From Phyllobacterium myrsinacearum (lineage in GTDB: Bacteria > Pseudomonadota > Alphaproteobacteria > Rhizobiales > Rhizobiaceae), in contig NZ_JACGXN010000014.1 in assembly GCF_014138285.1 (NCBI RefSeq), forward strand, positions 1-64,000: a DNA stretch of 64,000 nucleotides, read 5' to 3'. Under the pieces are notes generated by a model. That model did no database searches, had not been told where the DNA came from, and saw only the letters and a program-made list of their open reading frames with translations. Position 1 is the stretch's first letter; each line of letters opens with the position of its first letter. Both the position numbers and the translations under genes were made by a program. This document shows, piece after piece, positions 42,353 through 60,367 of this stretch.

Positions 42353-42424
42353 TGGCGCACCCCCGTATAAAAAACAGAAACCTTGCCTCGTGTGCAAGAA
42401 AAGCTGACCCGGAGGGTTGAGATT

Positions 42425-43745: not shown

Positions 43746-43771
43746 AAATATAAACGTATGGGAGGAATAAG

Positions 43772-44746
43772 ATGCGACACCACATGTGCCTGCTTGCTGC
43801 GACCGTAGCGCTGCCGTTTCTTGCGCAACCCAGCTGGGCAAACATGGTCTATGTTTCCAATGAGAAAGGCAATTCGGTAACGGTTGTTGACTCGAAAACC
43901 ATGGAGGTGGTGAAAACTATTGATGTCGGGCAAAGACCGCGCGGCATCACCATCTCCCCTGATGGAAAGATAGTTTACGTTTGCGCCAGCGACGATGATA
44001 CCGTGCAGATGATTGATACCGCCACGGGCGAAATCATCGGATCGCTGCCCTCAGGTCCGGACCCCGAACTCTTCACCCTGTCTCCCGATGGAAAGACCCT
44101 CTACATCGCTAATGAGGACGATAATCTGGTTACCGTCATTGACGTGGAATCCAAGGGGGTTATTGCCGAAATCCCTGTTGGTGTCGAACCGGAGGGCATG
44201 GGCGTGAGTCCCGATGGCAAGACCATCGTTAACACGTCAGAAACGACAAACATGGCGCATTTCATCGATACGTCTACACATGAGATTACCGATAACGTTC
44301 TAGTCGATTCACGCCCGCGTTATGCGCAGTTCAAACCAGATGGTTCGGAGGTATGGGTATCCGCAGAGATTGGCGGCACCGTCTCCGTCATCGACAACGC
44401 GACCCGGACAGTGACCCACAAGATCACCTTCGAAATTCAAGGTTTGCGTTCCGAGCAAATCCAGCCGGTGGGTATACGCATCAGTTCCGACGGCAAGAAG
44501 GCCTATGTTGCGCTTGGACCAGCCAACCGTGTCGCCGTCGTCAATGCGGAAACCTACCAAGTAGAAAAGTATGTCCTGGTGGGACAGCGGGTCTGGCAGC
44601 TTGCCTTCATGCCGGATGGCAAAAGTATTATCAGCACCAATGGCCTTTCCAACGACATAACATTCATCGACACAGAGACCGATGAACCCATCAAATCGGT
44701 GACCGTTGGCCAATTGCCATGGGGTGTAGCGGTCGCGCCGAACTAA
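43772..44746 (+). CDS. Periplasmic YVTN beta-propeller protein, PQQ-associated
   Basis: A 324-residue exported protein (signal peptide with LLAATVALPFLAQPSWA). It is built of about seven repeats of ~42 residues following the YVTN pattern, for example DVGQRPRGITISPDGKIVYV, SGPDPELFTLSPDGKTLYIA and VGQLPWGVAVAPN at the end. It matches the PQQ-dependent catabolism-associated beta-propeller group (TIGR03866-like). Propellers of this type bind proteins or cofactors rather than catalyse. GGAGG precedes the ATG. It lies between the binding protein and a small exported acidic protein, suggesting a periplasmic partner of the transporter. Confidence 0.85.
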   Translation: MRHHMCLLAATVALPFLAQPSWANMVYVSNEKGNSVTVVDSKTMEVVKTIDVGQRPRGITISPDGKIVYVCASDDDTVQMIDTATGEIIGSLPSGPDPELFTLSPDGKTLYIANEDDNLVTVIDVESKGVIAEIPVGVEPEGMGVSPDGKTIVNTSETTNMAHFIDTSTHEITDNVLVDSRPRYAQFKPDGSEVWVSAEIGGTVSVIDNATRTVTHKITFEIQGLRSEQIQPVGIRISSDGKKAYVALGPANRVAVVNAETYQVEKYVLVGQRVWQLAFMPDGKSIISTNGLSNDITFIDTETDEPIKSVTVGQLPWGVAVAPN

Positions 44747-44775
44747 CAGGAATAATCGACAAAAGGGAGGAACAT

Positions 44776-45270
44776 ATGTCGACTTTCAGAATGTTTGCAC
44801 TGGCCAGCTTTCTCAGCCTGGCACTTATCCCATCCTTCGCCATGGCTCAGGCGGATGACGACGATGACAAGGCAGCGCCAGAACCAAAGGCAACAGCCGG
44901 GGCCAAGACACCTGCGGTCACGCGCGCCAGCAAGAATGTACCGGAACTGATCCTTGGCTCCAAAGACGATGAATTCACTGTAAACCAGAAGGATTTCGAG
45001 CTGGTTGCCGGTCAGGGATATCGCTGGAAGATTACCTCAGCAGCAGGCCTCGAATACAAATTCGTTACGGACCTTTTCCGCAATGTCTGGATGAATCAAA
45101 TCGTCATCAATGACCTTGAAGTCCACATGAACGGAGCTCCCGCATGGCTGGAGTTTGACTCTCCGGGTACAATCAACGTCCAGTTCACGGCAGTACGGCC
45201 GGGCAAATATACCTGGTCTGTACCTGATCTTGCCGACAAGGGTATGAAGGGGACAATTACGATCAAATAA
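44776..45270 (+). CDS. Small exported protein with an acidic N-terminus
   Basis: A 164-residue exported protein that I do not recognise by name. After the signal peptide (FLSLALIPSFAMA) comes a short QADDDDDK acidic cluster and an Ala/Pro/Lys-rich linker. A ~115-residue domain of mostly beta structure follows (NVPELILGSKDDEFTVNQKD; WLEFDSPGTINVQFTAVRPG; KYTWSVPD). It looks cupredoxin-like in layout but lacks the Cys/His/Met copper ligands. GGGAGGAA precedes the ATG at 44776. Its position between the propeller and the ABC ATPase points to a periplasmic part of the same system. Metal binding by the acidic cluster is a guess. Confidence 0.7.
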   Translation: MSTFRMFALASFLSLALIPSFAMAQADDDDDKAAPEPKATAGAKTPAVTRASKNVPELILGSKDDEFTVNQKDFELVAGQGYRWKITSAAGLEYKFVTDLFRNVWMNQIVINDLEVHMNGAPAWLEFDSPGTINVQFTAVRPGKYTWSVPDLADKGMKGTITIK

Positions 45271-45323
45271 GCATCAGTATTTGCTGGAATGGGAACTGCA
45301 TAGGGTACCGAGGGTGGAGCTTG

Positions 45324-46130
45324 ATGGGTCCAAATAATGAATTGAAGACTATTCATGCCAAAGCATTGCCAGACACCAATGTACCGGCACTGGAACTTAC
45401 CTCGGTGAGCTATTTCTACGGCAAGCGACAGGCGCTGGACGACATCTCGTTCTCAATAGCGTCTGGTCGCTTTGCGGTGCTTTTGGGCTTGAACGGCGCC
45501 GGCAAGACAACGCTGTTTTCCCTGATCAGCCATCTCTTCGCGACCCGCTATGGTCGTATCCACGTATTCGGCAACGATGTCGATCGCAGATCAGGAGACG
45601 CGCTGCGACATCTTGGAATTGTCTTCCAGGCTCGCACGCTTGATCTTGACCTGACGATACACCAAAATCTGTCTTACCACGCATCACTGCATGGGATTGG
45701 ATCGCGTGAGGCTAACCGGCGAATTCATGATCTCATGCTGTCGATCGATATGAGCGACCGCCTTTATGAGAAAGCCCGCAGCCTCTCGGGTGGCCAGATC
45801 AGGCGCGTCGAAATTGTTCGTGCCCTGTTGCACAAGCCTTCGCTGTTATTGCTGGACGAGGCGACCGTCGGCCTCGACATAAAGTCCCGTGCAACGATCC
45901 TCAGGGATATTCGTAAACTGGTCGAGGAAAAGGGCATAAGCGTATTGTGGGCAACGCATCTGATCGATGAAGTCAACCACGCCGATCAGGTCATTGTCCT
46001 CAATCAGGGTAAGCTGGTGGCCAATGGCACCATGCACGACGTCGTCAAAGATGCCGGGAGTGACACTATCAACGAAGCTTTCTCCCGCCTCACGGGCATC
46101 GTTTCCTTGAATGTGGGAGGCCGTCCATGA
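45324..46130 (+). CDS. Quinoprotein-associated ABC transporter ATPase
   Basis: A 268-residue ATPase. Walker A is LNGAGKTT, the signature is LSGGQIRRVEI (residues ~150-160), Walker B is LLLLDEATVGLD and the H-loop is WATHLIDEV. The type is that of ABC-2 exporters, and it belongs to the PQQ-associated set (TIGR03864-like, the PedB group). It overlaps the permease gene by 4 bases. Relatives of this transporter in pseudomonads (ped genes) have been tied to lanthanide-dependent growth. GGTGGAG precedes the ATG at 45324. Confidence 0.88.
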   Translation: MGPNNELKTIHAKALPDTNVPALELTSVSYFYGKRQALDDISFSIASGRFAVLLGLNGAGKTTLFSLISHLFATRYGRIHVFGNDVDRRSGDALRHLGIVFQARTLDLDLTIHQNLSYHASLHGIGSREANRRIHDLMLSIDMSDRLYEKARSLSGGQIRRVEIVRALLHKPSLLLLDEATVGLDIKSRATILRDIRKLVEEKGISVLWATHLIDEVNHADQVIVLNQGKLVANGTMHDVVKDAGSDTINEAFSRLTGIVSLNVGGRP

Positions 46131-46990
46131 CCGACATTCCCGGCAACGCTTCCCTCCAGAACGCCGGATACCAACGTTTTGGCGTGATGCAACATCTGGT
46201 GTGTCTGAAGGGTATTCTTATTCGCGAGGGGCTTCGCTATCTTCATCAACGCGAGCGCTTTATCTCATCCCTCGTAAGACCGCTGCTATGGCTCTTCATC
46301 TTCGCAGCGGGTTTTCGTCAGGTTCTCGGTGTCTCGATCATCCCGCCTTATCAGACCTATGTACTTTATGAGGTTTACATCACTCCCGGGCTGTGCGGGA
46401 TGATCCTGTTGTTCAGCGGCATGCAATCCTCGCTCTCCATGGTCTATGACCGGGAAATGGGTAATATGCGCACGTTGCTGGTCAGCCCCTTCCCACGCTG
46501 GTTCCTGCTCGTATCCAAGCTGCTCGCGGGTGTCGCCGTTTCTATTGTCCAGGTCTACGCATTCTTGTTCATCGCCTGGTTCTGGGGGGTGAAAGCGGCA
46601 CCAGCTGGATACTTCTTGACGATGCCTGCACTATTCCTTGCGGGCATGATGCTGGGAGCACTCGGCATGTTGCTTTCCTCCATGATCAAACAGCTGGAAA
46701 ACTTTGCGGGAATCATGAATTTCGTGATTTTTCCGATGTATTTTGCGTCCTCCGCGCTCTACCCGCTCTGGCGCGTGCAAGAAGCAAGTCCCCTGCTCTA
46801 CAAAATATGTCTGCTTAATCCCTTTACCTATGCCGTTGAACTGGTGCGGTTCGCTTTTTACGGGAAAATCGAGTGGACATCCCTCGCTGTTGTCTGTGGC
46901 TTTACGCTTGTGTTCATCGCCGGTGCCATCATCGCCTATGATCCATCGAGGGGCCTCGTAATCAAGAAACAAGAGGGAGGGAACAATTGA
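46127..46990 (+). CDS. Quinoprotein-associated ABC-2 permease
   Basis: A 287-residue inner-membrane protein of the ABC-2 type with about six hydrophobic helices (for example PLLWLFIFAAGFRQVLG and LAVVCGFTLVFIAGAIIAYD). The YDREMGNMRTLLVSPFPRWF segment is the usual coupling and entry motif of this class. It matches the PedC group found with PQQ alcohol dehydrogenases. Together with the ATPase it forms a half-transporter pair. ABC-2 proteins usually export, although a periplasmic binding protein is encoded in the same operon, so the direction is open. It starts within the ATPase stop. Confidence 0.87.
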   Translation: MTDIPGNASLQNAGYQRFGVMQHLVCLKGILIREGLRYLHQRERFISSLVRPLLWLFIFAAGFRQVLGVSIIPPYQTYVLYEVYITPGLCGMILLFSGMQSSLSMVYDREMGNMRTLLVSPFPRWFLLVSKLLAGVAVSIVQVYAFLFIAWFWGVKAAPAGYFLTMPALFLAGMMLGALGMLLSSMIKQLENFAGIMNFVIFPMYFASSALYPLWRVQEASPLLYKICLLNPFTYAVELVRFAFYGKIEWTSLAVVCGFTLVFIAGAIIAYDPSRGLVIKKQEGGNN

Positions 46991-47613
46991 GACAGTCCCG
47001 GATTATCACTGCCAGTCTTCTCCTCTGTATAGCCTCGGTCGGCGCGTCTTTCAGTGCAGTACAGAATGATCCCACCTGGCCTTGCGTGCAACGCAAAGTG
47101 CCCGAATTGTCTGTTGGACAGGTTTGGAACGGTCCGGATATTCCTGAAACCGCGAAAAGTTGGGACGACGACGCAACAATACATGCTCTGGTCGATGAAG
47201 TGGCAGCGCGGCGCAATCCGCTGGATGTTGCGCAAAGGAAGATCGTCGAGTTTGCTGCTAACCTCCCCAGCGATCAGGTAAATGACAAGATGTTATTGTT
47301 GTTCCAAGGTCTATTCGACACGCTGAACCGCGAACGAGTACAAGTTATATCCGGCATCTCACGCTATGCCGGAAAGCAGCGTGAAATGGCGGAGGATCTG
47401 CGCAAGGAAGCGTCCAGGGTCGATGCTATGCGTGGTAAGGCCGATACGGACCCAGACGACCTCGACCGCGCCAACGAGAGGTTGACATGGGAAACAAGGG
47501 TTTTCGAAGAACGCGTGCAATCCCTGACCTATGTTTGTGAAGTACCAACCATTATCGAACAAAGGCTTTACGGTCTGTCGAAGACTATCGGCCAATCAAT
47601 GCTCAAGAACTAG
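46987..47613 (+). CDS. Exported helical protein of unknown function
   Basis: A 208-residue protein with a signal peptide (IITASLLLCIASVGASFSA). Its mature part is largely alpha-helical and charged (YAGKQREMAEDLRKEASRVD; LTWETRVFEERVQSLTYV), with a PTWPCVQRKVPELSVGQVW start and Cys at about residues 36 and 181. I do not recognise the family, but similar proteins end PQQ-linked ABC operons. The start is TTG overlapping the permease stop and preceded by a strong GAGGGAGGG. It meets pqqE tail to tail with three bases between the stops. A coiled-coil-like part acting with the transporter is possible. Confidence 0.7.
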   Translation: MRQSRIITASLLLCIASVGASFSAVQNDPTWPCVQRKVPELSVGQVWNGPDIPETAKSWDDDATIHALVDEVAARRNPLDVAQRKIVEFAANLPSDQVNDKMLLLFQGLFDTLNRERVQVISGISRYAGKQREMAEDLRKEASRVDAMRGKADTDPDDLDRANERLTWETRVFEERVQSLTYVCEVPTIIEQRLYGLSKTIGQSMLKN

Positions 47614-47616
47614 CGT

Positions 47617-48741
47617 TCAGGTAATAGGCTCGGCAGCCTTACCAATACGGCGATAAGTGAAGGCGTCTGGCTTTGCATCGGAGACAGCGGTTTCCATCGC
47701 TTCATTGATCAGTGTGCCCATGCGCGCGTGTAAAGGCGATTTGATACAGGCTGGATCAGTCGCTGCAGCATTGCCCGTAATCGCCATGGCCTGACAGCGG
47801 CAGCCGCCCCAATCAATTTCCTGCCGTTCGCAACTGCGACAGGGTTCCAGCATCCAGTCAGTCCCGCGGAACGCGTTGAATGCGGAAGATTTATGCCAGA
47901 TGCGAGCAAGATCCCAGTCGCCGAAACGCTCGAAATGCAGCGATTTAATCGTTGCTGCTGCATGGCATGGCAAAACCGCTCCATCAGGAGCAACCATGAA
48001 GGCATCCCGTGCCCACCCTCCCATACAGGGTTTGGGATAAATGGCGAAATAATCTGGTGTGACGAAATCGATCGTCATGATGCCGCGCAGCCGCTCCTGT
48101 GCCTCCTCGACGATCTGCACCTGACGTTCAACCGCCTCGCGCTCCGGCATGAGAGCCTTGCGATTGAGGAGTGCCCAACCAGCATATTGCACATTGGCGA
48201 TCTCGAGCCGCTCCGCTCCGAGGGAAAGCGCCAACTCAATGAACTGGGGTACTTCTTCCATATTATGGCGGTGGATCGGTGCATTGATAGTCAGTGGCAG
48301 ACCCGTGGCGCGAACGCGTCTGGCTGTTTCAAGCTTCTTTTCATGGGCCCCTTGTGCATTGCCGATTTTCTCGGTGGTCGCGGCGAAGGCGCCCTGAAAA
48401 CTCAATTGGATATGATCAAGCCCCGCATCAGCTAGCGCTTCGATACGCCCTTCGGCAATACCGACACCGGCGGTAATGAGATTGGTATAGACACCACGCC
48501 TGGCAAGACCGGCTACAAGCTTGGTCAAATCCGTACGCAGCGTCGGTTCACCTCCTGACAAATGAACCTGAAGAACACCGAGGTCCGCTGCCTGCTCGAA
48601 CAACGAGAGCCAGCCTGCAGTGTCCATCTCGCGATTGGCCTTCAAAAGCTCGACCGGGTTAGAGCAATAGGCGCATTGCAGCGGACAACGGTGTGTCAGT
48701 TCTGCCAGCATACCGATCGGAGGAAGCACAGGGTCTGTCAT
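47617..48741 (-). CDS. pqqE: PQQ synthesis radical SAM enzyme
   Basis: A 374-residue radical SAM enzyme that forms the carbon-carbon bond between Glu and Tyr of PqqA. The SAM-cluster motif CPLQCAYC gives Cys19, Cys23 and Cys26. SGGEPTLR is the next family motif. The C-terminal SPASM region has CMGGW, PCHAAATI and CRSCERQ plus CRCQAM for auxiliary clusters. The ATG at 48741 overlaps the pqqD stop (ATGA). It is the last gene of pqqABCDE. Confidence 0.97.
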   Translation of the reverse strand: MTDPVLPPIGMLAELTHRCPLQCAYCSNPVELLKANREMDTAGWLSLFEQAADLGVLQVHLSGGEPTLRTDLTKLVAGLARRGVYTNLITAGVGIAEGRIEALADAGLDHIQLSFQGAFAATTEKIGNAQGAHEKKLETARRVRATGLPLTINAPIHRHNMEEVPQFIELALSLGAERLEIANVQYAGWALLNRKALMPEREAVERQVQIVEEAQERLRGIMTIDFVTPDYFAIYPKPCMGGWARDAFMVAPDGAVLPCHAAATIKSLHFERFGDWDLARIWHKSSAFNAFRGTDWMLEPCRSCERQEIDWGGCRCQAMAITGNAAATDPACIKSPLHARMGTLINEAMETAVSDAKPDAFTYRRIGKAAEPIT

Positions 48742-49037
48742 AGCGTCACCAGAAACTTGTCGGACCACTCCTGCAGGAAGGCGCTGATATCCGGAGCTAT
48801 TTCTTCCTGCTCCGCAGCATATTGATCCGCGAGAATTGCAATCATCTGCGTCACGCTGTGGCGACCATCACAGAGTCGCAAAATGTCGAGGCTGACTTCA
48901 TTCGGCCAAAACACTTTCTCCGGTGATAGCAATGCCCACGCCTCGCGCACCCCATCATATTGCAATCGCACATGACGCCGTAAAATCGGCAGTGATTGCA
49001 TCGACACGACGGCACGGGAGCGGGATGTTTCAATCAT
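48738..49037 (-). CDS. pqqD: PQQ synthesis peptide chaperone
   Basis: A 99-residue protein of the RRE (peptide recognition) fold that delivers PqqA to PqqE. It has the opening VSMQSLPILRRHVRLQYDGV, WALLSPEKVFWPNEVSLDIL and the closing AFLQEWSDKFLV, all typical. It overlaps pqqC by 4 bases and pqqE by 4, keeping the three in step. Confidence 0.95.
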   Translation of the reverse strand: MIETSRSRAVVSMQSLPILRRHVRLQYDGVREAWALLSPEKVFWPNEVSLDILRLCDGRHSVTQMIAILADQYAAEQEEIAPDISAFLQEWSDKFLVTL

Positions 49038-49789
49038 GCTGGCTCCGGCACAAAGGCACCGGGCGGAATATTGCCCTTTTCGCCGTAAGCATGGGCCAAC
49101 GCATCAAGCATCGCCCAGAGCACATCACATTTGAAGACAAGTGAATCGATTGCCGCCTGCTGCTTTTCAGGATTGTTGGCATGTTTCATCACATAGGCGA
49201 GCGCGAAATCGGAATCGCGAGAGGCAAGCGCCGGGCGCTTGTCAAAATAGGCTAGAATATCTTTGGTGATATAATCATATTTTGCCAGCATCGCCGGAAC
49301 ACGCTCGCTGATAATGATCGGCGAGAACAGTTCGGTCAGCGACGATGCTACCGCTTCGAGCAATGTGCGGTTGGTGCAATAGGTAAGATACGCGCCCACG
49401 GCAAACCGCGTAGCTGGCAATACAAGTTTTTCGCTTTTGACCACATTGGCATCAAGGCCCAGACCAGTGGCCAGTTTGAGCCAGCGCGCGATGCCGCCGT
49501 TCCAGCCATCATCACCATCATGGTCATCGATCCGCTTGCGCCATTCGGCGCGAAACTCCGGATCCTCCGAGCGCATAATGATAGCGGCATCCTTGCGCGG
49601 AATGACCGACTGGTAGGCATAGCGATTAAGCGCCCAGGCCTGCATCTGTCCCTTGGTCAGGGCCCCACTGGTCATCTGATTATGAAACGGATGACGATTA
49701 TGATAGCGCGCAGCACCCACGGCATGCAGGACCTCTTCAAGCTGCGCCGGGGATAATCCATTGCGTGCCGCATCACCAAATTCACTCAA
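49034..49789 (-). CDS. pqqC: PQQ synthase (final oxidation)
   Basis: A 251-residue cofactor-free oxidase that carries out ring closure and eight-electron oxidation to PQQ. Conserved segments are YHNRHPFHNQMTSGALTKGQ, NRYAYQSVIPRKDAAIIMRS and AYVMKHANNPEKQQAAIDSL. The length is standard. Overlaps with pqqB and pqqD of 4 bases each indicate one transcript. Confidence 0.97.
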   Translation of the reverse strand: MSEFGDAARNGLSPAQLEEVLHAVGAARYHNRHPFHNQMTSGALTKGQMQAWALNRYAYQSVIPRKDAAIIMRSEDPEFRAEWRKRIDDHDGDDGWNGGIARWLKLATGLGLDANVVKSEKLVLPATRFAVGAYLTYCTNRTLLEAVASSLTELFSPIIISERVPAMLAKYDYITKDILAYFDKRPALASRDSDFALAYVMKHANNPEKQQAAIDSLVFKCDVLWAMLDALAHAYGEKGNIPPGAFVPEPA

Positions 49790-50724
49790 AGTCTGATCTC
49801 CATGCCATCAAATGCTATTTTCCAGCCGGCGCCGACAACCGCCGCATGTTCGACGGATGAGTCGTCGAGAACAGGATTGGTGTTATTAATATGAACATAA
49901 ATCCTGTCGCCAATTCCAAGCGTTGCCAAAGCAGCCAGTGAACCTTCTTCACCTGAAATAGATACATGCCCCATCCGCGCGCCGGTCTTAGAGCCGACAC
50001 CCGCCGTAATCATTTCATCGTCTGTATAAAGAGTGCCATCGAAGAGCAGGCAATCCGCCCGCTCCAGCCTTGATTTGAGCATCGCGTCGATACGCGCGCA
50101 GCCGGGAATATAAAATACAGAGTGCTCATTGCCTTTTGAGGAAATCCGGAGCCCGATCGTATCGCCCTCTTGAGTACCAAAACCTTCTGCCGCTTTGGCC
50201 TGATCTTCAAGGAATAGCGCGACCTTGCCGGGAACGGTAAAAGTTTCGACAACGATGCCTGTCGATTTTCCCGTCGCATCCAGAACGTCCGTTTGCGTGC
50301 CAATCTTCAGTTCGCGGCGGTGAACGATTGCCCGGTCAAGGACATTGAAAATGGAATTGGCCTCGAGCACCTCAAGAACGCGCGCTGTCGCATACAGAGC
50401 AAATGGCTCACGTTCGCGCAGAGCAAGCAGCCCGGCAATATGGTCCACATCCGCATTGGTCAGGATCACCGCTCTTATTGGTGTCGCGCGCAAAGGCCCA
50501 TTTTCATGTGGTTGAAGCTCCGGTGTCGCTGCGATCTGCTGACGTATATCGGGTGAGGCATTGAAAAGCACCCAATCGGCTCCCTTTGCACTGACGGCAA
50601 GACTGGATTGGGTTCGGGGACGAAAGTTTGCTCCGCCGTTCCAGGCTCCGCGACTTAATCGATAATTGCAATTCCATTGAGGAAACCCGCCTCCGGCCGC
50701 TGAACCGATTATTTTCAATCGCAT
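49786..50724 (-). CDS. pqqB: PQQ synthesis metallohydrolase-fold protein
   Basis: A 312-residue protein of the metallo-beta-lactamase fold, thought to hydroxylate the tyrosine of the Glu-Tyr intermediate. The start IIGSAAGGGFPQWNCNYRLS and the metal-loop TNADVDHIAGLLALRE are diagnostic. The short HVHINNTNP-like segment near the C-terminus (IYVHINNTNPVL) is also typical. GGAG lies 12 bases upstream. It is separated from pqqA by a strong hairpin (50787-50814). Confidence 0.96.
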   Translation of the reverse strand: MRLKIIGSAAGGGFPQWNCNYRLSRGAWNGGANFRPRTQSSLAVSAKGADWVLFNASPDIRQQIAATPELQPHENGPLRATPIRAVILTNADVDHIAGLLALREREPFALYATARVLEVLEANSIFNVLDRAIVHRRELKIGTQTDVLDATGKSTGIVVETFTVPGKVALFLEDQAKAAEGFGTQEGDTIGLRISSKGNEHSVFYIPGCARIDAMLKSRLERADCLLFDGTLYTDDEMITAGVGSKTGARMGHVSISGEEGSLAALATLGIGDRIYVHINNTNPVLDDSSVEHAAVVGAGWKIAFDGMEIRL

Positions 50725-50980: not shown

Positions 50981-51580
50981 TCATGGCGCAAGATTGAAAT
51001 TAATGGGTTCATTTTTTTGTGTAGCCCGCCCCGCCGCGATCCAGCCATCAGTGCCAAGCGGATACCAGAACACGGAGCGGTATCCCCATTCGATTGCCCT
51101 TTTGGCGGCATTCCACGACATCCAGCAATTCTCCATACAATAAAAAAGCACCCTTCGATTCTTGTCGGATCCGAGACGCGATTCCAGCCCTTTGCGGAAA
51201 TAGGCTTCTGTCTCCTTGTTCAAAATTCCGTAGCCTACATTTGCAAGCCAGATGCTCCCCGGAATATCTTCCCGCACCTTGTCTCGCCATACAGTTCCTG
51301 CTGGAAGGTTCGCCGGTTTAGGATCATGTGGGAGCACATCAACAAAGACCGTCGACTTGTCCTCCCATAGAGCAATCACCTCATCCGTCGTTACAACTTT
51401 TGCCCCCTTCAAGGTCGCAGGAACGGGAGCCCGGTATGTGTTTGTTCTGTATTCCTCTGGTTCGGGCACATTGTCCTTTTCACCAGCCAGATTGACACCT
51501 GTACTCATCAAAAAGACCACGGCTGCCAAATAGATCGGCGCTGCGTTGCCCGATCGGCTATTGCGTGATCGGCTTGTCAT
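50981..51580 (-). CDS. Rhodanese-like PQQ-associated C-x3-C-W protein
   Basis: A 199-residue exported or anchored protein (hydrophobic segment IYLAAVVFLMSTGVNLAG) with a rhodanese-like domain. The active loop reads YCMENCWMSWNAAKRAIEWG, giving Cys148, Cys152 and Trp153. It matches the PQQ-dependent catabolism-associated family TIGR03865. Such proteins are found beside PQQ alcohol dehydrogenases and may handle sulfur or disulfides, for example the Cys-Cys ring of XoxF; that role is inferred. It overlaps the end of xoxJ by 23 bases. Confidence 0.85.
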   Translation of the reverse strand: MTSRSRNSRSGNAAPIYLAAVVFLMSTGVNLAGEKDNVPEPEEYRTNTYRAPVPATLKGAKVVTTDEVIALWEDKSTVFVDVLPHDPKPANLPAGTVWRDKVREDIPGSIWLANVGYGILNKETEAYFRKGLESRLGSDKNRRVLFYCMENCWMSWNAAKRAIEWGYRSVFWYPLGTDGWIAAGRATQKNEPINFNLAP

Positions 51581-52418
51581 TTTCGTCCATCAGCGGAACA
51601 TAATATTCAAGCAAGATCCGATTGATCTCCGGCTGGTTCTCCTTGATGATCTTGTTCAGTGTTCGCTTCCACTCCTGATCCGACGGGCGTACGCCCATTG
51701 TAATCCGGTAAGCCATGTGTCCGGACTTTTCCTTTGCCAACGAGACGACCGTCAAGTCCGGATTGATCTCATGTGCATAATAACCCGCCATCGGGCCCCA
51801 AAGGATCGCCACATCTATAGTCCCCTTCATAAGATCCTTGATCATGACATCCGCCATGGAGGGTGCCAATCGCGTATCAACCATCAATGGATAGGGAAGA
51901 ACGTTGCGCATATAGCCAACCTTGGCGAGATTGGCTGCAGGAGGAGTTCCCGCAACAACACCGATCTTCTTGTCCGCCAGCTTCTTGTCCTCGATCGATA
52001 CCACATCATCCAGACCGGTGCCCTTCTTGAAGACCATGACATATGTAGAGCGGTAGTAGGCATTGGTGTTCTGCACAAGTTCGTCACCCTGGGCATAACC
52101 CATGATGATATCGCAGTGGTTGGACCGCAGGGTATTGCGTACAAAGCCGGTAGCCATGGGATACCAGGTATAAGCCACTGACTTCCGTCCGGTTTTGGAC
52201 GCTACCAGTTCCGCCAGCTTGTTTTCAAATCCTTTGCCGCTTTGATCGGAAAACGGCATGTTCGATGGGTCGGCACAAACACGCAGTATATCAGGATCAA
52301 CGAGTTCACCGGCAGCTCCCAAGCCGGCCCCCTGCGCACGGACACTCGAAGGCGCCACGGCAATAGCCGCGAACAACAAGGCAGCAAACCAGTACAGGAA
52401 AGATTTTGAGCTCTGCAT
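51558..52418 (-). CDS. xoxJ: XoxJ-type periplasmic binding protein
   Basis: A 286-residue exported protein (signal peptide with FLYWFAALLFAAIAVAPSSV, then RAQ) of the SBP_bac_3-like fold. It begins ILRVCADPSNMPFSDQSGKG, standard for quinoprotein dehydrogenase-associated binding proteins (TIGR03871-like), followed by VGVVAGTPP-like (IGVVAGTPPAANLAKVGYM) and DLMKGTIDVAILWGPMAGYY. XoxJ is thought to help activate or mature XoxF rather than import a ligand. The ATG at 52418 lies 4 bases after the xoxG stop. Confidence 0.92.
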   Translation of the reverse strand: MQSSKSFLYWFAALLFAAIAVAPSSVRAQGAGLGAAGELVDPDILRVCADPSNMPFSDQSGKGFENKLAELVASKTGRKSVAYTWYPMATGFVRNTLRSNHCDIIMGYAQGDELVQNTNAYYRSTYVMVFKKGTGLDDVVSIEDKKLADKKIGVVAGTPPAANLAKVGYMRNVLPYPLMVDTRLAPSMADVMIKDLMKGTIDVAILWGPMAGYYAHEINPDLTVVSLAKEKSGHMAYRITMGVRPSDQEWKRTLNKIIKENQPEINRILLEYYVPLMDENDKPITQ

Positions 52419-52422
52419 TGTC

Positions 52423-52947
52423 TCATCCACCCATACAGGAATCTTCCGCCTGTTTGGCGGCCGCAGGCTTGTCTTCATGCTTTGCCGGCCGTCCTCGCGG
52501 AAGGTCACCGACAGCGCGTGAGCGCAGATAGACGTAGAGATCATCCATGTAGCAATAGACATTCTTGTTGTCGCCGAAAGCCGGCATCACTTTGTCATTG
52601 CCATTGCTCAGGTTTTTACGACCGCCGGCAACGATTGCCATAAAATCGGCATAGGACATCGTCTTGAGTGAATTGGCCAGAACCGGCGCGAAGGACGACC
52701 CGGCCCCATCAGCTCCGTGGCAAACATTGCATTCAGAATTGAAGCGGCGATAACCACTGTAGGTATACCAATCGACCGTTCCATCCGGTTGTATCTTGAA
52801 TGTCGGATTTCCGTCTTTGTCGGCATATTTACCGTTGTCCTCAGAAGCGACTGCGGCTGCAGCCTTGTCATCAGCATAGCTGCTGCCTTGCCCCGCAAGG
52901 AGAGCAAAAGCGGCTGCGACCGCCAGAAGTGTTGTTCGAATCGGCAT
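52423..52947 (-). CDS. xoxG: Cytochrome c, XoxF electron acceptor
   Basis: A 174-residue periplasmic c-type cytochrome with signal peptide TLLAVAAAFALLAGQGSSYA. The haem motif is CNVCH, and an axial Met is likely in KVMPAFGDNKNVYCYMDDLY. A C-terminal tail of ~35 charged residues (GRPAKHEDKPAAAKQAEDSC) follows the cytochrome domain. It is the expected electron acceptor of XoxF from its position directly downstream of xoxF. GAGG precedes the ATG at 52947. Confidence 0.93.
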   Translation of the reverse strand: MPIRTTLLAVAAAFALLAGQGSSYADDKAAAAVASEDNGKYADKDGNPTFKIQPDGTVDWYTYSGYRRFNSECNVCHGADGAGSSFAPVLANSLKTMSYADFMAIVAGGRKNLSNGNDKVMPAFGDNKNVYCYMDDLYVYLRSRAVGDLPRGRPAKHEDKPAAAKQAEDSCMGG

Positions 52948-53093
52948 CCGGTAACCTCGCATTCACCCGTCGGGCAGCACCTCTCAGCGCCGGCTCAACG
53001 GTTATGATTGATCATCAATTGTCGGTCAGGTGACACGAGGGGCCCGGCCTGGTTGAAACCGGGCACCCTGTTTATGTGTCCATCCGCCCCTGT

Positions 53094-54920
53094 TTATTCG
53101 GGGACGGCGAAAACGGTCAGCTGACCGCCCAAAGCCGTATAGTCGGACAGACCGGCATAACCACCGACTGCACCCAGACCATCCGTGCCTTTTGTAAGAC
53201 CGGCAGCAAGACCGATGCCTGCCCAGCCACCCACACCAGACAGAACGGCAACATATTGTTTGCCCTTGTGTTCATAGGTGGTGACGTTACCGATAATGCC
53301 GGAAGGAGTCTTGAACTTGTAAAGCTCCTTGCCGTTTTTATCGACTGCCTTCAGATAACCTTCAAGCGTACCGTAGAATACCACGTCGCCATCGGTTGCA
53401 AGAGCACCGGACCAGACCGAGAACTGCTCCGGCTTGGACCAGACTATTTCGCCCTTTGCTGCGTCCCAGGCAATGAAGTTGCCCATGCCGCCATGGCTGT
53501 TCGGAGCCGGATACATGGAAAGCGTTGCACCGATGTAAGGCTGACCGGCGGTATAGCTGACCTTGTAGGGCTCGTAATCCATGCAGACATGGTTTGTCGG
53601 GACATAGAAGAGTTTCGTCTTCGGTGAATAGCTGGCGGGTTGCTGGTCCTTGGTACCAAGAGCGGCAGGGCAAATACCCGTCGTATTGACGTCTTCACCC
53701 TGTTTTGCCGTCGAATATTTGTCGACGACGATAGGACGCCCATAGTCCTTGCTGTTCTTGTCCATCACGACTTCTGTCGCCCAGTTGACAGCCGGATCGT
53801 ATTTCTTTGCTACCAGAAGTTCGCCGGTTGCACGGTCCAGAGTGTAGGCAAAGCCGTTGCGGTCAAAATGCACCAGAACATTGCGATCCTTGCCATCTAT
53901 TTTTATACCGTCTGCAAGGATCATCTCGTTAACACCGTCATAATCCCACTCGTCATGCGGGGTCATCTGGTACAGCCATTTCGCCATACCGGTATCGGCA
54001 TCACGGGCCATGATTGTCATGGACCACTTGTTGTCGCCAGGACGCTGACTGGGATTCCATGTGGAGGGATTACCCGTGCCATAATAAATGAGGTTCAATT
54101 TGGGATCATAAGAATACCAACCCCAGGTTGTTCCACCACCGATCTTCCACTGATCACCTTCCCATGTCTTGGTGCTGGAATCAGCGCCGACCGGTTTACC
54201 GAGCTGGGTCGTCTTTTCCGGATCAATCAATGTGTCCTTGTCGGAACCGATCGACCATGCCCGCCACGCTTGCTTGCCGTCTTTGATATTATAGGCAGTC
54301 AAAGCACCGCGCACACCAAACTCACCACCGGAAATACCGACGATGACTTTGTCCTTCACGACCATCGGAGCAGAAGTGCCGGACTCGCCTTTGCTACCAT
54401 CGGCAGCTTCACCATTCTTCACTGACCATTCGGGCTTGCCTGTTTTTGCATCGAGAGCCACGAGGGTTGTATCAGCCTGGTAAAGGAAGATTTTTCCGTC
54501 ACCATAGGCTACGCCGCGATTAACGGTGTCGCAGCACATGATGGGAATAACATTTGGATCCTGTTTGGGTTCATACTTCCACAGGATCTTGCCGTCATTG
54601 TTCAGGTCAAGCGCATAGACTGTATTCGGATAGGGCGCATGGACATACATGACATCCCCGATGATGAGCGGACCACCTTCGTGGCCGCGCAGCACGCCTG
54701 TCGAAAACGTCCAGGCGACCTGAAGGTTCTTGACGTTATCCTTATTGATCTTGTTGAGTTTTGAATATCGGGTATTGGCATAATCGCCGGTCTGGATCGC
54801 CCAGTCCTTGGAATTGGAAATCAAAGCCTGCAGATCGTCATTGGCCAAAGCTCCTCCCGCCAATGAAAATGACAAAGTAAAAGTAGCCAACGCTCGCATT
54901 AAATTCTTGTGTACACGCAT
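53094..54920 (-). CDS. xoxF: Lanthanide-dependent methanol dehydrogenase
   Basis: A 608-residue periplasmic quinoprotein oxidising methanol with PQQ. It has a signal peptide ([16 protein letters not shown]), a beta-propeller fold and the adjacent Cys129-Cys130 ring over PQQ. Metal ligands Glu200 (SGGEFG) and Asn284 (GTGNPSTWN) and the catalytic Asp326 are present. Asp328 in the WDYDG motif is the extra Asp that marks lanthanide (XoxF) rather than calcium (MxaF) enzymes. GGGAGGA precedes the ATG. It begins the operon xoxF-xoxG-xoxJ-rhodanese-pqqABCDE. The clade cannot be proven without a tree, though XoxF5 is usual in alphaproteobacteria. Confidence 0.98.
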
Positions 54921-55372
54921 TATGAGTCCTCCCTAAGTTCACATTTATGAACCATCGGGCGAAACCGTTAATAGCAACGGCCCGCTCCATTAGCTCACGC
55001 AAATGGGGAAGTATTTCCGGCAGCGTGTCACGACCTAAGCCAGGCGCGCAGAGGGCACCGTTACTGCCCACCCCGCTTGGCCTACGAAGACTGTCACCAC
55101 TCCCTTGACGGTAACGTCCTTGAAGCCGGAAACAAGATGACGATAGGAGAAAGATTTGCATTAGGCAAGCATGTTTATCAATTTATATTTTCTGCACCGC
55201 AATATACACTTTTTGCATTGCAGCATATTTTGCATTTTCCTATTTTATTCTGCAATCTATAGGAACATCATAATTTGATACTTTAATACTAGACAATTCT
55301 TTCCAATCAATATTATTATTTGTTATCCATTTGAAAAATGTGACACTTCATCAGCGCAAAGGCAACGGCCCG
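54921..55372. promoter_or_regulatory. Divergent control region of xoxF with repeated TTTGCATT
   Basis: This 450-base gap holds no supported gene. Its right half (55140-55330) is strikingly AT-rich. Three exact copies of TTTGCATT occur at 55155-55162, 55212-55219 and 55229-55236, with further TCTGCA variants near 55191 and 55249. The 8-mers lie about 235-315 bases upstream of xoxF and look like sites for a regulator of methanol genes. The left half near xoxF is GC-rich with no clear dyad. Confidence 0.55.
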
Positions 55373-55723
55373 ATGTCAATATCAAAAGCCCTGCAATTAA
55401 GCCTGTTCGCAATCGCAACAATTGCATATTCTTTGCCGGCAAAATCAGCCACGAATTATCCCACGCCAGCCCTTGCCGAATACGTTTACGGCTGCATGAA
55501 GGCCAACGGAGAGAACCGGGATTCGCTGCAACGCTGTTCCTGTTCGATCGATGTCATTGCGTCGGTCATTTCCTATGATCACTATGTGGCCGCTGAAACA
55601 TACAAATCAATGGGAATGGTTCCCGGCGAAAATGGCGCCCTCTTTCGCGAAAGCGCTCCGGCGAAAACTTCGATCACGGAACTGAAACGCGCCCAGGCCG
55701 AAGCCGACATACGCTGTTTTTAA
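55373..55723 (+). CDS. Small exported cysteine-containing protein
   Basis: A 116-residue protein with a signal peptide (LQLSLFAIATIAYSLPAKSA). Its mature part of ~93 residues has four Cys: in YVYGCMKANG, RCSCSIDVIASVISY and the C-terminal RCF. I do not recognise a named family. It faces away from xoxF across the AT-rich control region and lies convergent with the SoxYZ-like gene. Its place suggests a periplasmic accessory role, perhaps disulfide-stabilised. A TTG at 55331 could also start it, but the ATG at 55373 begins a normal signal peptide. Confidence 0.7.
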   Translation: MSISKALQLSLFAIATIAYSLPAKSATNYPTPALAEYVYGCMKANGENRDSLQRCSCSIDVIASVISYDHYVAAETYKSMGMVPGENGALFRESAPAKTSITELKRAQAEADIRCF

Positions 55724-55740: not shown

Positions 55741-56592
55741 TTACAAGCTTGATGATGCAAGCGGCCACTCGTCCTGAAATTTCTTTCCTTCGGTGTCGGA
55801 CGCCTCTACCTTAACGTCCTCTCCTGGCTTCGCATCAAATTCAAAGCGAAAATTCGGATCTTCCGAAATCGAAATTCCACCCTCCATCGACATGATCAGC
55901 CGGTTGCCCTGGGACACGATCAGTCCCTGAATGAAGTGCGCCGGTATGTAGTACCGGGTTACCTGGTCCATCTGCAGTCCGGAATTGTTCGGATGGCGGA
56001 TCATGAGCTGCATTTCAGTCGCACGGGTCATCGGCTCCATCCCGGATGATTTGGATGAAAACACACGCAATTTCATTTTGCCAAGGTTGGCGAGCGCCTC
56101 GTCGGAATTTTTCATGGCTGGCGCAGAGCAGCCGCCCGATGCCTTGACGAAGGTTTCTGTCATGCGGAGTTTACCATCTTCGGTCTCCGCGATGGCCCTT
56201 ACATAGGAATAAGCATTCACACGCAATCGCGTTGCCAGGTGAGTCACGCCCGCATCGACACCAAACCTGAATACAGCAGCAACCGGTGATGGATTCTCGT
56301 CGACGATCAAGGTCACTGTCTTGATGCGGCCGGATGCGGCATCCGTTTTGAAATGCAGGTCAATCGGAACGATCGCAGCATCTTCCGCTCGCTTAGGCGC
56401 CTCGATACTGACAATACCGTTCGCGGGCTCAATGAACTTCTGCCCGAAGACATCACCCTTCAAGCTGCTCCAGGTTGTACTTTCAGGAGAATCTGCATTT
56501 TGAGCCCAGGCAGAGGAAGATATCGCCGAACCAAAAAACGCAAAAAGAACAACGGCAACCAAAGGATTGCGCAGTTGAATCGTTGCAAACAT
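55741..56592 (-). CDS. Quinoprotein-associated SoxYZ-like carrier
   Basis: A 283-residue exported protein (LVAVVLFAFFGSAISSSAWA) that joins a SoxY-like domain (to ~residue 160) to a SoxZ-like domain (from ~175). The carrier Cys is Cys155 in SGGCSAPAMK, matching the GGC swinging arm of SoxY. SoxZ-like segments include MQLMIRHPNNSG and YIPAHFIQGLIVSQGNRL. In Sox systems the arm carries sulfur intermediates; here the companion genes and lack of other sox genes point to a quinoprotein relay instead (TIGR04557-like). It is last in the minus-strand operon of the metallohydrolase and ABC genes. Confidence 0.87.
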   Translation of the reverse strand: MFATIQLRNPLVAVVLFAFFGSAISSSAWAQNADSPESTTWSSLKGDVFGQKFIEPANGIVSIEAPKRAEDAAIVPIDLHFKTDAASGRIKTVTLIVDENPSPVAAVFRFGVDAGVTHLATRLRVNAYSYVRAIAETEDGKLRMTETFVKASGGCSAPAMKNSDEALANLGKMKLRVFSSKSSGMEPMTRATEMQLMIRHPNNSGLQMDQVTRYYIPAHFIQGLIVSQGNRLIMSMEGGISISEDPNFRFEFDAKPGEDVKVEASDTEGKKFQDEWPLASSSL

Positions 56593-56690
56593 AGTGTTCT
56601 GCCTCCACCAAGGATAAGTTTGGCGGTGCCCGGCTTCTCATGAACTATACCATCCAACCGAACGGTCTGGCAAATGCCGACATTGCCAAA

Positions 56691-57650
56691 TCATTCCCAC
56701 TCAAGTTCAGCGAAAGCCGCGATCGCGTTACGTTGATTGTATTCGTCGAAAAGTTTCCAGTTTGCGCGTTCGCGCTGTGCAGCCGACTTGACGGCATTTG
56801 TCATCGGCACACCGTCAGCAATGGCTCTACGTATGTCGCTCGCAAGCACGTCAAAATACCGACGCTCTGCTTCCAATGCCTGTGGCCATGGTGAGGGCAC
56901 CGCTCCATGTCCCGGTACCGCAAATTTCGCCTTGATCCCATTCAGGATATCCAATTGCGCAATCCATCCGAGCAGCGAACCGTCTATCGTTGGCAGATGG
57001 TCGATAAAGCATAGATCTCCCGTAAAAAGGACACCGGTTTTGTGATCAAAAACCGAAAGATCATTATCGGTGTGTGCTGCCTTCCATGCTCTCAAGGTAA
57101 GCTTGCGATTACCAATATCGAGGTCTTCCTCATCGGTTATGAGCTTGGTTGGCGGAACGATCCTGATATCCGCCATCAAATCATCGCCCATGGCCTCTCT
57201 GTAACTTTGCAGGTAATATGTGCCACGGCTTTCCAATGCGCGCGGCAAATTATGATGGCCAACAACGGTGGCGCCGCTAGACTTGAAAGCAGCATTGCCG
57301 AACAGGTGATCCGGGTGCATATGGGTGTTGATCAGATAGCGGACAGGTCTGTCGGTTTTGGCCCGAATGGCCCCGATTAAAGCCTTGCCTTCAACCACGC
57401 TTCCTCCACTGTCGATGACGGCAACCGAGTCATCGCCAATAATGAAACCGACATTGCAAATCTCGCCTTCATTCTGACGGGTCATCATCGCTGGTGCGCC
57501 GGCAAAGGCAAATACACCGTCAGCGACCTGTTTCACCGGTAACGGATCAGCGGACATCGACCAGGCCAGCGCCGCACGCGTATGTGGCACGCCGCAACAG
57601 GCAAAAAATATGCCTGTTTTAAGGATATTGCGCCGGGTCGCGTGACTCAT
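56691..57650 (-). CDS. Quinoprotein relay zinc metallohydrolase (type 2-like)
   Basis: A 319-residue exported metallo-beta-lactamase-fold hydrolase related to SoxH. Zinc-binding THMHPDHLFG is at ~109-118. Further ligands are likely in VVGHHNLPRAL, AAHTDNDLSVFDH and LFTGDLCFIDHLP. A twin-Arg RRNILKTGIFFACCG start could be a Tat-type signal. The family (TIGR04559-like) is found with SoxYZ-like carriers beside PQQ dehydrogenases, so it may hydrolyse a group carried on Cys155 of the neighbour. The ATG at 57650 lies 2 bases after the ABC ATPase stop; the frame extends upstream into that gene. Confidence 0.85.
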   Translation of the reverse strand: MSHATRRNILKTGIFFACCGVPHTRAALAWSMSADPLPVKQVADGVFAFAGAPAMMTRQNEGEICNVGFIIGDDSVAVIDSGGSVVEGKALIGAIRAKTDRPVRYLINTHMHPDHLFGNAAFKSSGATVVGHHNLPRALESRGTYYLQSYREAMGDDLMADIRIVPPTKLITDEEDLDIGNRKLTLRAWKAAHTDNDLSVFDHKTGVLFTGDLCFIDHLPTIDGSLLGWIAQLDILNGIKAKFAVPGHGAVPSPWPQALEAERRYFDVLASDIRRAIADGVPMTNAVKSAAQRERANWKLFDEYNQRNAIAAFAELEWE

Positions 57651-57652
57651 GG

Positions 57653-58423
57653 TCAGATACCCCTGCCCGCGAACTTTGCATTGAACGAACGCAGCAGATC
57701 CGCTTTGACCTGCGCATTGCGGCTCTGTCGTGGAACCCTGATATCGAAGGTTCCAATGACGCGCGCCGGCCGATCCGAGAATACAATAATCCGGTCCGAC
57801 AGCATGATTGCCTCCTGCAGATTGTGAGTCACCATAAGTGCTGTCGTCGGGTGCTCTGACCAAACGGACATGAGCAGATGGCGAAGCTGTTGTGCTGTTG
57901 CCTCGTCCAGCGAAACGAAGGGCTCGTCAAGCAGCAGAATGTCCGGTTCGATTGCCAGCGCTCGCGCAATCGCCACCCGCCGCGCAAGACCAAGAGACAG
58001 TTCGCCAGGATAGAATGCCCGCATCCTGGCTAATCCCAGAATGCTGAACAAACCGTCGAGGTTCGTGTTTTTTAAATGCTTCGGCAGTGCCAGCCGCACG
58101 TTTTGTTCTACCGAACGCCAGGGCAGCAGCGTAGGCTCCTGAAACACCGCACCGATGCGAGGTTCTACCGATCCAGGCAACTGAACCGTCCCCCGATAAT
58201 TACTCTCAAGCCCAAGTAAAATGCGCAATGTAGTCGTCTTGCCGCATCCAGAGGGGCCCAGAATGCAGGCAAACTGGTTCTGTTCTACGTCGAAATGCAA
58301 ATCACACAGCACATCAATCGCTTCGCCGTTCGATGAACGAAACGATTTTTCCTGGATATCAACTTCAAGCCGGTCGACGACGCCAACGCGTTGATGTGTG
58401 TTCAAGAGGCTGTACCACCACAA
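57653..58423 (-). CDS. ABC transporter ATPase, nitrate/sulfonate type
   Basis: A ~250-residue ATPase of the SsuB/TauB type. Walker A is GPSGCGKTT (residues ~55-63), Q-loop AVFQEPTLLPWRSVEQNV, signature LSLGLARRVAI and Walker B LLLDEPFVSLDEA. The signature has LSLGL where LSGGM or LSGGQ is normal. The start is uncertain: the first ATG (58423) gives a 59-base overlap with the permease gene, and a TTG at 58405 is possible. It serves the permease and binding protein upstream. Confidence 0.82.
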   Translation of the reverse strand: MWWYSLLNTHQRVGVVDRLEVDIQEKSFRSSNGEAIDVLCDLHFDVEQNQFACILGPSGCGKTTTLRILLGLESNYRGTVQLPGSVEPRIGAVFQEPTLLPWRSVEQNVRLALPKHLKNTNLDGLFSILGLARMRAFYPGELSLGLARRVAIARALAIEPDILLLDEPFVSLDEATAQQLRHLLMSVWSEHPTTALMVTHNLQEAIMLSDRIIVFSDRPARVIGTFDIRVPRQSRNAQVKADLLRSFNAKFAGRGI

Positions 58424-59180
58424 GTTCGATGAAAAGCATTACCGCAACGAACGCCAGCGTATAGGCGAGAATTGCGGCAACATCGAAGAGTTGAAAAAAC
58501 AGATTAATCTGGAATCCGATACCATTGGATCGCCCCATGAGCTCGACAACAAGAACAATCTTCCAAATCAGTGAAATGCCAGAACGCGCAGTTGCTGCGA
58601 TATAAGGTTGCAACTGCGGTAACAGGACATGCCGCAAACGATGGAGTGCGCTGAAACGGTAAACATGCGCCATCTCGGCATAGCGCGGGTCGAGCGCACG
58701 CGTTCCTTCTCGCATCGTCACGACTACATTGGGAATTTTGTTCAAGGCAACAGCACCAATCGCCGCCGCCTCGTTCAGGCCAAACCAGATATAGGCCAGG
58801 ACGATGATGACGAGCGCCGGGACATTCAGGAAAAGAATGAGCCAAGGGTTGAAAAACTGATCAGCACGTCGATGACTGCCCAGAAAAACACCGATCACTG
58901 ATCCGATAACCATCGCAAGGAAGAACGAGGCCACGACGCGACACAGGGTGATCGCCAAATGATAGGGTAAATCGCCGTTCGCGGTTTCGCTTACAAATTT
59001 TTGCAGGACAAGCAGCGGGGCAGGAAAGGATCGACTTGGCCATATCGCAGCGCCAATATGCCAGACGAATATGAGTGCCGCGAAAGACAGCAATACCACG
59101 ATAGGCGAGGTCCACCGTCGCGATTGCGGTAAAAGCATCGTCTTTACTGTGCCCTGCTGCTCAGTGGAAACGGCTGCCAT
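58365..59180 (-). CDS. ABC transporter permease, nitrate/sulfonate type
   Basis: A 271-residue inner-membrane protein of the SsuC/TauC type with about six helices. The EAA-like loop is ALDPRYAEMAHVYRFSALHR with LRHVLLPQLQPYI next to it (residues ~160-195). The first ~20 residues are a cytoplasmic lead. Its start directly abuts the stop of the binding-protein gene (59181). The substrate is unknown; its relatives move sulfonates, nitrate or thiamine precursors. Confidence 0.86.
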   Translation of the reverse strand: MAAVSTEQQGTVKTMLLPQSRRWTSPIVVLLSFAALIFVWHIGAAIWPSRSFPAPLLVLQKFVSETANGDLPYHLAITLCRVVASFFLAMVIGSVIGVFLGSHRRADQFFNPWLILFLNVPALVIIVLAYIWFGLNEAAAIGAVALNKIPNVVVTMREGTRALDPRYAEMAHVYRFSALHRLRHVLLPQLQPYIAATARSGISLIWKIVLVVELMGRSNGIGFQINLFFQLFDVAAILAYTLAFVAVMLFIELVVVQPLEHTSTRWRRRPA

Positions 59181-60161
59181 CTATCTCGCCCTCCAGAACG
59201 TACCGGAAGCCAGTGTTGCTGCCGGCCCAACAAGTCGTGGGCCGCCGAGTTCCGCAAGAACCGCATAGAGCTTTTCCGCGTCCGCTTGCTCGTCATTGAT
59301 GGGTCGTGAAGGGATACCTTCGCGATACCGTTCACGCAAAATCGCGAGTTCACGGCCTTCCGCTTTTATCACTGGCGCAAGCCTTAGCCATTCCGCATCG
59401 GAACCGCCGAGAAGCACTTTCGCATCACCACTAGCCTTTATGAATCCGGCAATAGCCTTGGGATGGGCATTTGCCCAGCTATCATGGAATATGTAGCCCA
59501 GAGCCGACACGGTGCCGGTAGCGCCAAGAGCCTTTGCGGCATCGCTCGTACTGATCACCCGATGAAAGCCGTCAGCTTCCAATCTCGCGCAGAAATTCCA
59601 GAAATTCAGAACAGCATCAAGCTCGTTCTGCTGCGCTTTTTCGGCCAGCAATGGCGGGGCACCATAGACAATTTCGTTCTGCTCAGCCAGATCGAGCGAC
59701 TGACGTTTGGCAAGCCCCTGAAGGAGTAGCCAGCTCTTGTCGAGAGGCCCGCCTGCAACGCCGATTTTCTTGCCCTTCAGATCGGCAAGACTTTTGACTG
59801 GTGACCCGTCGCGAACCATGAGCGCACCCACCGAGGTGGAATATGGCGCGAAAGCCAAGTCTTCACCTGACGTCCGCTGACGCGATACCCAAAGCCAATC
59901 CGAGACGATTATATCCACATCCCCCGCCATCATCGCGACATTGGTCGCGTCCTCACTGGCGAAGAAATGAACGTCCACATTCACATCATATTTCTCATCG
60001 AGCTTGTGGTGTTTGATCGTGTCGAGCTCCCAGTTCACCGTACCGAATTTGAGGACACCGACACGCACGGTTTCCGCAGCCTGGCTTTCTTGTGCGTTGC
60101 CGGCAAGCAGTGCGAGCAACAAGCAGAAGATGCGCAGAAAATATTGAAGCTTATCTGTCAC
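59181..60161 (-). CDS. ABC transporter binding protein, quinoprotein-linked
   Basis: A 326-residue exported binding protein (signal region FLRIFCLLLALLAGNAQESQ, then AAE) of the SsuA/TauA/NMT1 type. It begins VRVGVLKFGTVNWELDTIKH, followed by VAMMAGDVDIIVSDWLWVSR and LKGKKIGVAGGPLDKSWLLL. The Trp-rich DWLWV and ELDAVLNFWNFCARL segments differ from sulfonate binders. It starts with GTG overlapping the stop of a 69-residue gene. Association with the SoxYZ-like and metallohydrolase genes suggests it delivers a cofactor or substrate for the relay. The ligand is unknown. Confidence 0.84.
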   Translation of the reverse strand: MTDKLQYFLRIFCLLLALLAGNAQESQAAETVRVGVLKFGTVNWELDTIKHHKLDEKYDVNVDVHFFASEDATNVAMMAGDVDIIVSDWLWVSRQRTSGEDLAFAPYSTSVGALMVRDGSPVKSLADLKGKKIGVAGGPLDKSWLLLQGLAKRQSLDLAEQNEIVYGAPPLLAEKAQQNELDAVLNFWNFCARLEADGFHRVISTSDAAKALGATGTVSALGYIFHDSWANAHPKAIAGFIKASGDAKVLLGGSDAEWLRLAPVIKAEGRELAILRERYREGIPSRPINDEQADAEKLYAVLAELGGPRLVGPAATLASGTFWRAR

Positions 60162-60367
60162 AACGTCAGCTCATTTGTGGGATAGGTGCATTTCCAGCGA
60201 GCGACGCGATGTTTCGGATGCTCTTCCGTCCATTTGGCAATTTCGGCCGGTGCCAGGAACATGCAATTGAGAAGATTTCCCTTGTTCTCAAAATGCAGAC
60301 GTTCCTCCCGGCAATTTGACGGGTTGGACACAAGACAGACTGTTAAGATGAGTTCGACAACATCCAT
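60158..60367 (-). CDS. Conserved-looking 69-residue protein
   Basis: A 69-residue protein beginning MDVVELILTVCLVSNPSNCR, with four Cys in all (residues ~11, 19, 35 and about 60, the last in RWKCTYP). The C-terminal part, EIAKWTEEHPKHRVARWKC, is well structured. AGAGGTG precedes the ATG at 60367. It overlaps the binding-protein gene by 4 bases and heads the operon, which argues that it is real. The pattern resembles small uncharacterised proteins with a hydrophobic start and paired cysteines. Function unknown. Confidence 0.7.
   Translation of the reverse strand: MDVVELILTVCLVSNPSNCREERLHFENKGNLLNCMFLAPAEIAKWTEEHPKHRVARWKCTYPTNELTL

Follow-up and report, generated by a model that had tools for sequence, protein, structure and literature searches.

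What do six adjacent genes beside a lanthanide methanol dehydrogenase handle in the periplasm, and what, if anything, do they import? The genes occupy positions 55741 to 60367 of a 64,000-nt stretch of DNA (hereafter the window) from the plant-associated bacterium Phyllobacterium myrsinacearum, and the first-pass annotation read them as co-directional, partly overlapping genes for a relay that moves an undefined group or cofactor between periplasm and cytoplasm in support of the dehydrogenase XoxF. All six open reading frames (ORFs) do lie on the minus strand where that annotation placed them, and the idea of cofactor movement is supported for the ATP-binding cassette (ABC) importer that they encode. 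The substrate-binding protein (SBP) of this importer (326 aa, 59181..60161, minus strand) is a homologue of PqqT, and therefore the cofactor moved is, judging from sequence, most likely pyrroloquinoline quinone (PQQ). We consider it probable that the importer is of the PqqT type and recaptures PQQ, and that it stands beside a known quinoprotein-associated carrier/hydrolase pair.

PqqT of Methylorubrum extorquens AM1 (PDB 9b1u, 9b1v, and 9ooz) is a published periplasmic PQQ-binding protein with a dissociation constant of 50 nM that is reported to help keep free PQQ from being lost. A profile of the window SBP family (13 sequences) matched PqqT (9b1u) at 322 bits in a search of the PDB, nearly 300 bits ahead of SsuA. 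The structure model of the SBP had a predicted local distance difference test (pLDDT) score of 92.5, and its best Foldseek/VIA matches were PqqT structures with PQQ bound, far above the next structure. The two proteins have the same fold, belong to the same family and share 43% identity over 290 aa. In a tree of 48 rows PqqT was nested in the clade of the window SBP, although the outgroup branches are very long, that of PqqT is long, and bootstrap support is not settled. Lys142 of the SBP aligns with PqqT and is invariant in 13/13 rows; this lysine was varied in published PqqT work and its role is described in a review.

The genomic surroundings of related SBPs point the same way. From a contig scan with the SBP, 80 loci were kept of 121 relatives, and 12 of the 80 listed stand apart at 42–82% identity over most of the protein; by E-value, the top match among the remaining 68 reached 32% over a shorter stretch. 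PQQ-linked genes surround the SBP in all 12 close loci, although for two of them (L006 and L010) neither the carrier nor the hydrolase gave a match within the stretch. The seven markers employed (SoxYZ, hydrolase, XoxF, XoxG, XoxJ, CXXCW, and PQQ_ABC_bind) had no match at E 1e-5 in the other 68 loci, some of which are on short contigs.

The SBP stop codon directly abuts the ATG of the gene for an ABC permease (271 aa, 58365..59180, minus strand; BPD_transp_1 family, Pfam PF00528), and the latter overlaps the gene for an ABC ATPase (256 aa, 57653..58423, minus strand; PF00005), provided that a TTG start is used. At 11 of the 12 close loci, homologues of both adjoin the SBP gene. A permease homologue also lies behind PqqT-like SBPs in L171, L172, L173, and L175, and the SBPs of G394, G158, G178, and G106, which are closer to PqqT (76, 76, 72, and 72% identity, respectively), each precede permease and ATPase homologues. 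The order SBP-permease-ATPase-hydrolase-xoxF recurs in G065, G190, and G197. These arrangements suggest that the permease and ATPase are the cognate partners of the SBP; our literature search, which did not extend to the original PqqT paper, found no description of an inner-membrane partner for PqqT. The window differs from PqqT in that its SBP gene runs together with the carrier and hydrolase genes, the AM1 locus being outside the comparison. The ATPase has Walker A, Walker B, and H-loop motifs, and its LSLGL signature (residues 142–146) was correctly noted in the first-pass annotation but is not altered, since 44/49 homologue rows have LSLG[LQM], the form usual for such ATPases. All three ABC proteins scored under the cut-off for every NCBIfam model listed. 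Separately, at L112, L113, and L114, in genomes without PqqC, the PqqT-type SBP and a short ATPase with the LSLG motif adjoin a glucose/sorbosone dehydrogenase-like protein (PF07995).

Co-occurrence with PQQ enzymes had been set beforehand as a check on the proposed function and proved favourable. We used two partly overlapping samples, 199 genomes of the host order and 392 of the phylum. The SBP is encoded in 71 of the 199 order genomes by one gene each (in split pieces in G174 and G192). PQQ-dependent alcohol dehydrogenases (PQQ-ADHs; E 1e-60) were found in 65/71 genomes with the SBP and 16/128 without it, XoxF (at least 63% identity) in 54/71 and 4/128, PqqC in 62/71 and 17/128, and the fused carrier in 62/71 and 6/128. 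In at least 25 of the 71 genomes, xoxF or another PQQ-ADH gene lies within 10 kb of the SBP gene. Across the phylum the SBP was present in 46/392 genomes, all 46 of which encode a TIGR03075 enzyme, including 19/19 outside the order. The importer and carrier are nevertheless separable, as the fused carrier is missing from nine of the 71 SBP genomes and the SBP from six of the 68 carrier genomes, and the view of the six genes as a single obligate unit is unsupported.

In the simplest mechanism, which we favor, the SBP would catch free PQQ that has leaked from, or is still unloaded into, XoxF5 and other quinoproteins, and the permease and LSLG-type ATPase would carry it inward for reuse or sensing. 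Several observations weigh against this reading. PQQ acts in the periplasm, and its import by a PQQ producer has no obvious purpose. Residue W91 of the window SBP is Phe in PqqT. The genomes were counted as independent though they are related, so that p-values overstate independence. PqqC is absent from 9/71 SBP genomes, and the SBP from 17/79 PqqC genomes; retention of the SBP in the nine PqqC-less genomes is consistent with, but no proof of, use of external PQQ. In the phylum sample 68 of the 346 SBP-less genomes have a PQQ-ADH, and thus PQQ enzymes can do without the SBP. G162, which makes a sixth exception beside the five genomes named next, has the SBP and ABC genes with no PQQ enzyme among the eight ORFs tested by Pfam or by blastp with window proteins. 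Lastly, in five genomes of one family (L120, L121, L122, L124, and L125) the PqqT-type SBP is solitary, the 17 kb read around it having neither PQQ genes nor ABC partners, and the SBP of L007 also lacks permease and ATPase genes.

Since the SBP stands without ABC genes at these loci, transport may not be its whole function, and the solitary SBPs of the one family may leave room for a buffering role. An SBP serving purely as a periplasmic PQQ buffer or chaperone in the manner of MxaJ/XoxJ, with the ABC genes dispensable or otherwise employed, would also accord with reports that XoxJ itself is an SBP-like accessory. We think this unlikely, however, given the ABC genes that adjoin the SBP in nearly all close loci and the motifs retained in the ATPase. 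Slightly less probable still is uptake of lanthanide as a PQQ chelate, whereby PqqT would bind the lanthanide-PQQ complex and the ABC proteins would import the metal for cytoplasmic sensing or storage. PqqT has been solved with PQQ and Gd3+, a review lists La3+ binding constants for PQQ-PqqT, and the proximity of SBP genes to those of xoxF or other PQQ-ADHs would suit such a role. Conversely, 17 of the 71 SBP genomes of the order have no XoxF at 63% identity or more, a separate lanthanide importer (Lut ABC) has already been published, and the window holds a second, PedABC-like ABC system. The latter is a set of the PedA1A2BC type (TIGR03863, TIGR03866, and TIGR03864) at 42417-46990 on the plus strand, followed at 46987-47613 by a 208-aa protein without a family match.

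The carrier and hydrolase that accompany the importer belong to named families. The fused SoxYZ-like carrier (283 aa, 55741..56592, minus strand) matched TIGR04557, the family of P. putida PP_2677, over its full length with 282.2 bits (cut-off 140), and is the only such match in the genome. Its sole cysteine, the Cys155 noted previously, lies in a GGC arm, and the arm cysteine is aligned in 11/11 rows. The metallohydrolase (319 aa, 56691..57650, minus strand), whose ATG is 2 nt past the ATPase stop codon and whose gene is separated by a 98-nt gap from that of the carrier, matched TIGR04559 (quinoprotein relay system zinc metallohydrolase 2; a relative of PP_2678) over its full length with 400.8 bits (cut-off 280), has the HxHxDH and PGHG motifs in 10/10 rows, and has a Tat-like RR signal, as judged by eye. 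No feature was found that distinguishes either protein or the carrier's type of neighborhood from these families. Both NCBIfam names include the word quinoprotein, and that of TIGR04559 already holds the idea of a relay. A true Sox thiosulfate oxidation system was rejected: the carrier protein, scored alone, was below the cut-offs for SoxY (67.5 vs. 125 bits) and SoxZ (63 vs. 76 bits), and the best SoxB match over the whole genome had 145.4 bits vs. a cut-off of 550, so that the earlier statement that there are no other sox genes holds for SoxB, the sole gene tested. Sox carriers have domains and an arm cysteine in common with the window carrier, and TIGR04559 is named after SoxH, but the window carrier is fused and has the arm GGCSAP rather than the GGCGG in the name of the SoxY model.

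According to a 2026 review of the ped cluster, the P. putida counterparts of the pair adjoin PedH and had minimal transposon phenotypes where rare earths were absent, and counterparts are reported to be absent from P. aeruginosa and tied to PQQ-ADHs with adjacent cysteines. The roles proposed there are disulfide formation or shielding of PQQ from sulfur nucleophiles. The window XoxF5 (53094..54920, minus strand; TIGR03075, 761 bits) has such a pair, the vicinal Cys129-Cys130. We suspect that the single arm Cys155 holds a thiol-bound group, that the hydrolase, probably exported by the twin-arginine translocation (Tat) pathway, frees the group from the arm, and that the most likely target of the pair is thiol/sulfur chemistry, either at the vicinal disulfide of XoxF or in PQQ adducts.

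Two small proteins with four cysteines each complete the neighborhood. The first, orf130 (55331..55723, plus strand), was overlooked in the first-pass annotation and lies outside the six-gene interval. It is predicted to be helical (model pLDDT 72.7), its four cysteines are invariant in seven rows, and it had no match in Pfam at E 0.01 or in NCBIfam at E 1e-5. In the order sample orf130 occurs in 58/58 genomes whose XoxF has at least 63% identity and in 0/141 others, a threshold which falls in a gap, as the best XoxF match elsewhere is 54% or less. Among the matches listed, orf130-positive genomes represent 19 families, 13 of which also have genomes lacking both orf130 and XoxF. Outside the order, orf130 was found in seven of 20 chosen genomes, six of them with XoxF at 67–75% identity; in the seventh, G551, the better of the two dehydrogenases compared (of three) was 46% identical to XoxF. 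For nine of the 13 negatives (G406, G532, G422, G353, G503, G212, G459, G521, and G284) one or two dehydrogenases were compared, none of which exceeded 39%, and some of these genomes have further dehydrogenases; those of G306, G402, G497, and G219 were left out of the comparison. In L161, L162, L164, and L170, which represent two families and none of which is AM1, an orf130 homologue comes after pqqE and a gene of ~230 aa, matching the reported AM1 order orf6, orf7, pqqE (META1p1746 and META1p1747 being orf6 and orf7). We infer from this gene order that orf130 is probably AM1 orf6, loss of which reportedly lowers the growth rate on La-supplemented methanol from 0.16 to 0.03 per hour. In the window orf130 instead adjoins the carrier gene and xoxF, and nothing resembling orf7 was found there. 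The ~230-aa gene at the orf7 position (L161 7705-8394; L164 8981-9694) had no Pfam match and no near-cut-off NCBIfam match.

The second small protein, orf69 (60158..60367, minus strand), overlaps the SBP gene by 4 nt and has four cysteines as described previously, invariant in six rows, with no Pfam or NCBIfam match at E 0.01. It was present in 53/199 order genomes, 53/53 of which have a PQQ-ADH. A counterpart of 86% identity at L139 14889-15095 is missing from the incomplete gene table of that plasmid, and a homologue in L160 is labeled hypothetical.

A further scheme would join most of these components in one PQQ salvage-repair cycle for XoxF, in which the Cys155 arm takes a released PQQ or sulfur adduct, the zinc hydrolase frees it, and PqqT with its ABC partners returns it to the cytoplasm, while XoxF5 would depend strictly on orf130 (as AM1 orf6) for its maturation or assembly. 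We regard this as doubtful, about on a par with lanthanide uptake. A sulfonate or taurine importer supplying sulfur to the carrier is very improbable, since the general SBP fold and ABC class shared with SsuABC/TauABC, the hint of sulfur chemistry from carrier and rhodanese, and the reported inhibition of Hyphomicrobium growth on methanol by thiosulfate (in a review) are set against SBP scores far under the TIGR01728 and TIGR01729 cut-offs (40.8 vs. 163.5 and 46.1 vs. 304.25 bits), the lead of PqqT over SsuA, the lack of a SoxB above cut-off, the PQQ neighborhood and co-occurrence, and the LSLG signature. The signature of SsuB is LSGGQ.

Downstream of the six genes and on the same minus strand, xoxF is followed by genes for a XoxG-type cytochrome c (52423..52962; TIGR03874), a XoxJ/MoxJ-like periplasmic protein (51558..52562 as the longest ORF; TIGR03871), a CXXCW rhodanese-like protein (50981..51580; TIGR03865), and PqqB, PqqC, PqqD, and PqqE (47617..50724; NCBIfam equivalogs above cut-off). 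Upstream are a cytochrome c gene, a thioredoxin-like gene, rpe, cbbX, and cbbS, as judged by tblastn and comparison with an annotated plasmid. Four other loci (L002-L005), three from Phyllobacterium and one from Ciceribacter, have the same gene order, and Phyllobacterium loci are also the nearest named ones. The plasmid of Phyllobacterium sp. T1293 bears the same set, and its protein annotated as XoxF5 is 98.7% identical to the window XoxF; because of this recurrence we do not consider the arrangement to be due to chance.

Each of the larger proteins belongs to a known family, the carrier and hydrolase having been reviewed in 2026 and PqqT published, so that the locus is not a new kind of system, contrary to the initial expectation. 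The importer now has a concrete ligand hypothesis, PQQ. The locus supplies a candidate permease and ATPase for PqqT, making PQQ recapture testable, and links the SoxYZ-like/SoxH-like pair to PQQ handling, while orf130 is a small Cys protein whose distribution matches that of XoxF exactly across the 199 genomes. XoxF enzymes are reportedly abundant worldwide in soil and sea, and their helper proteins therefore matter for rare-earth biology.
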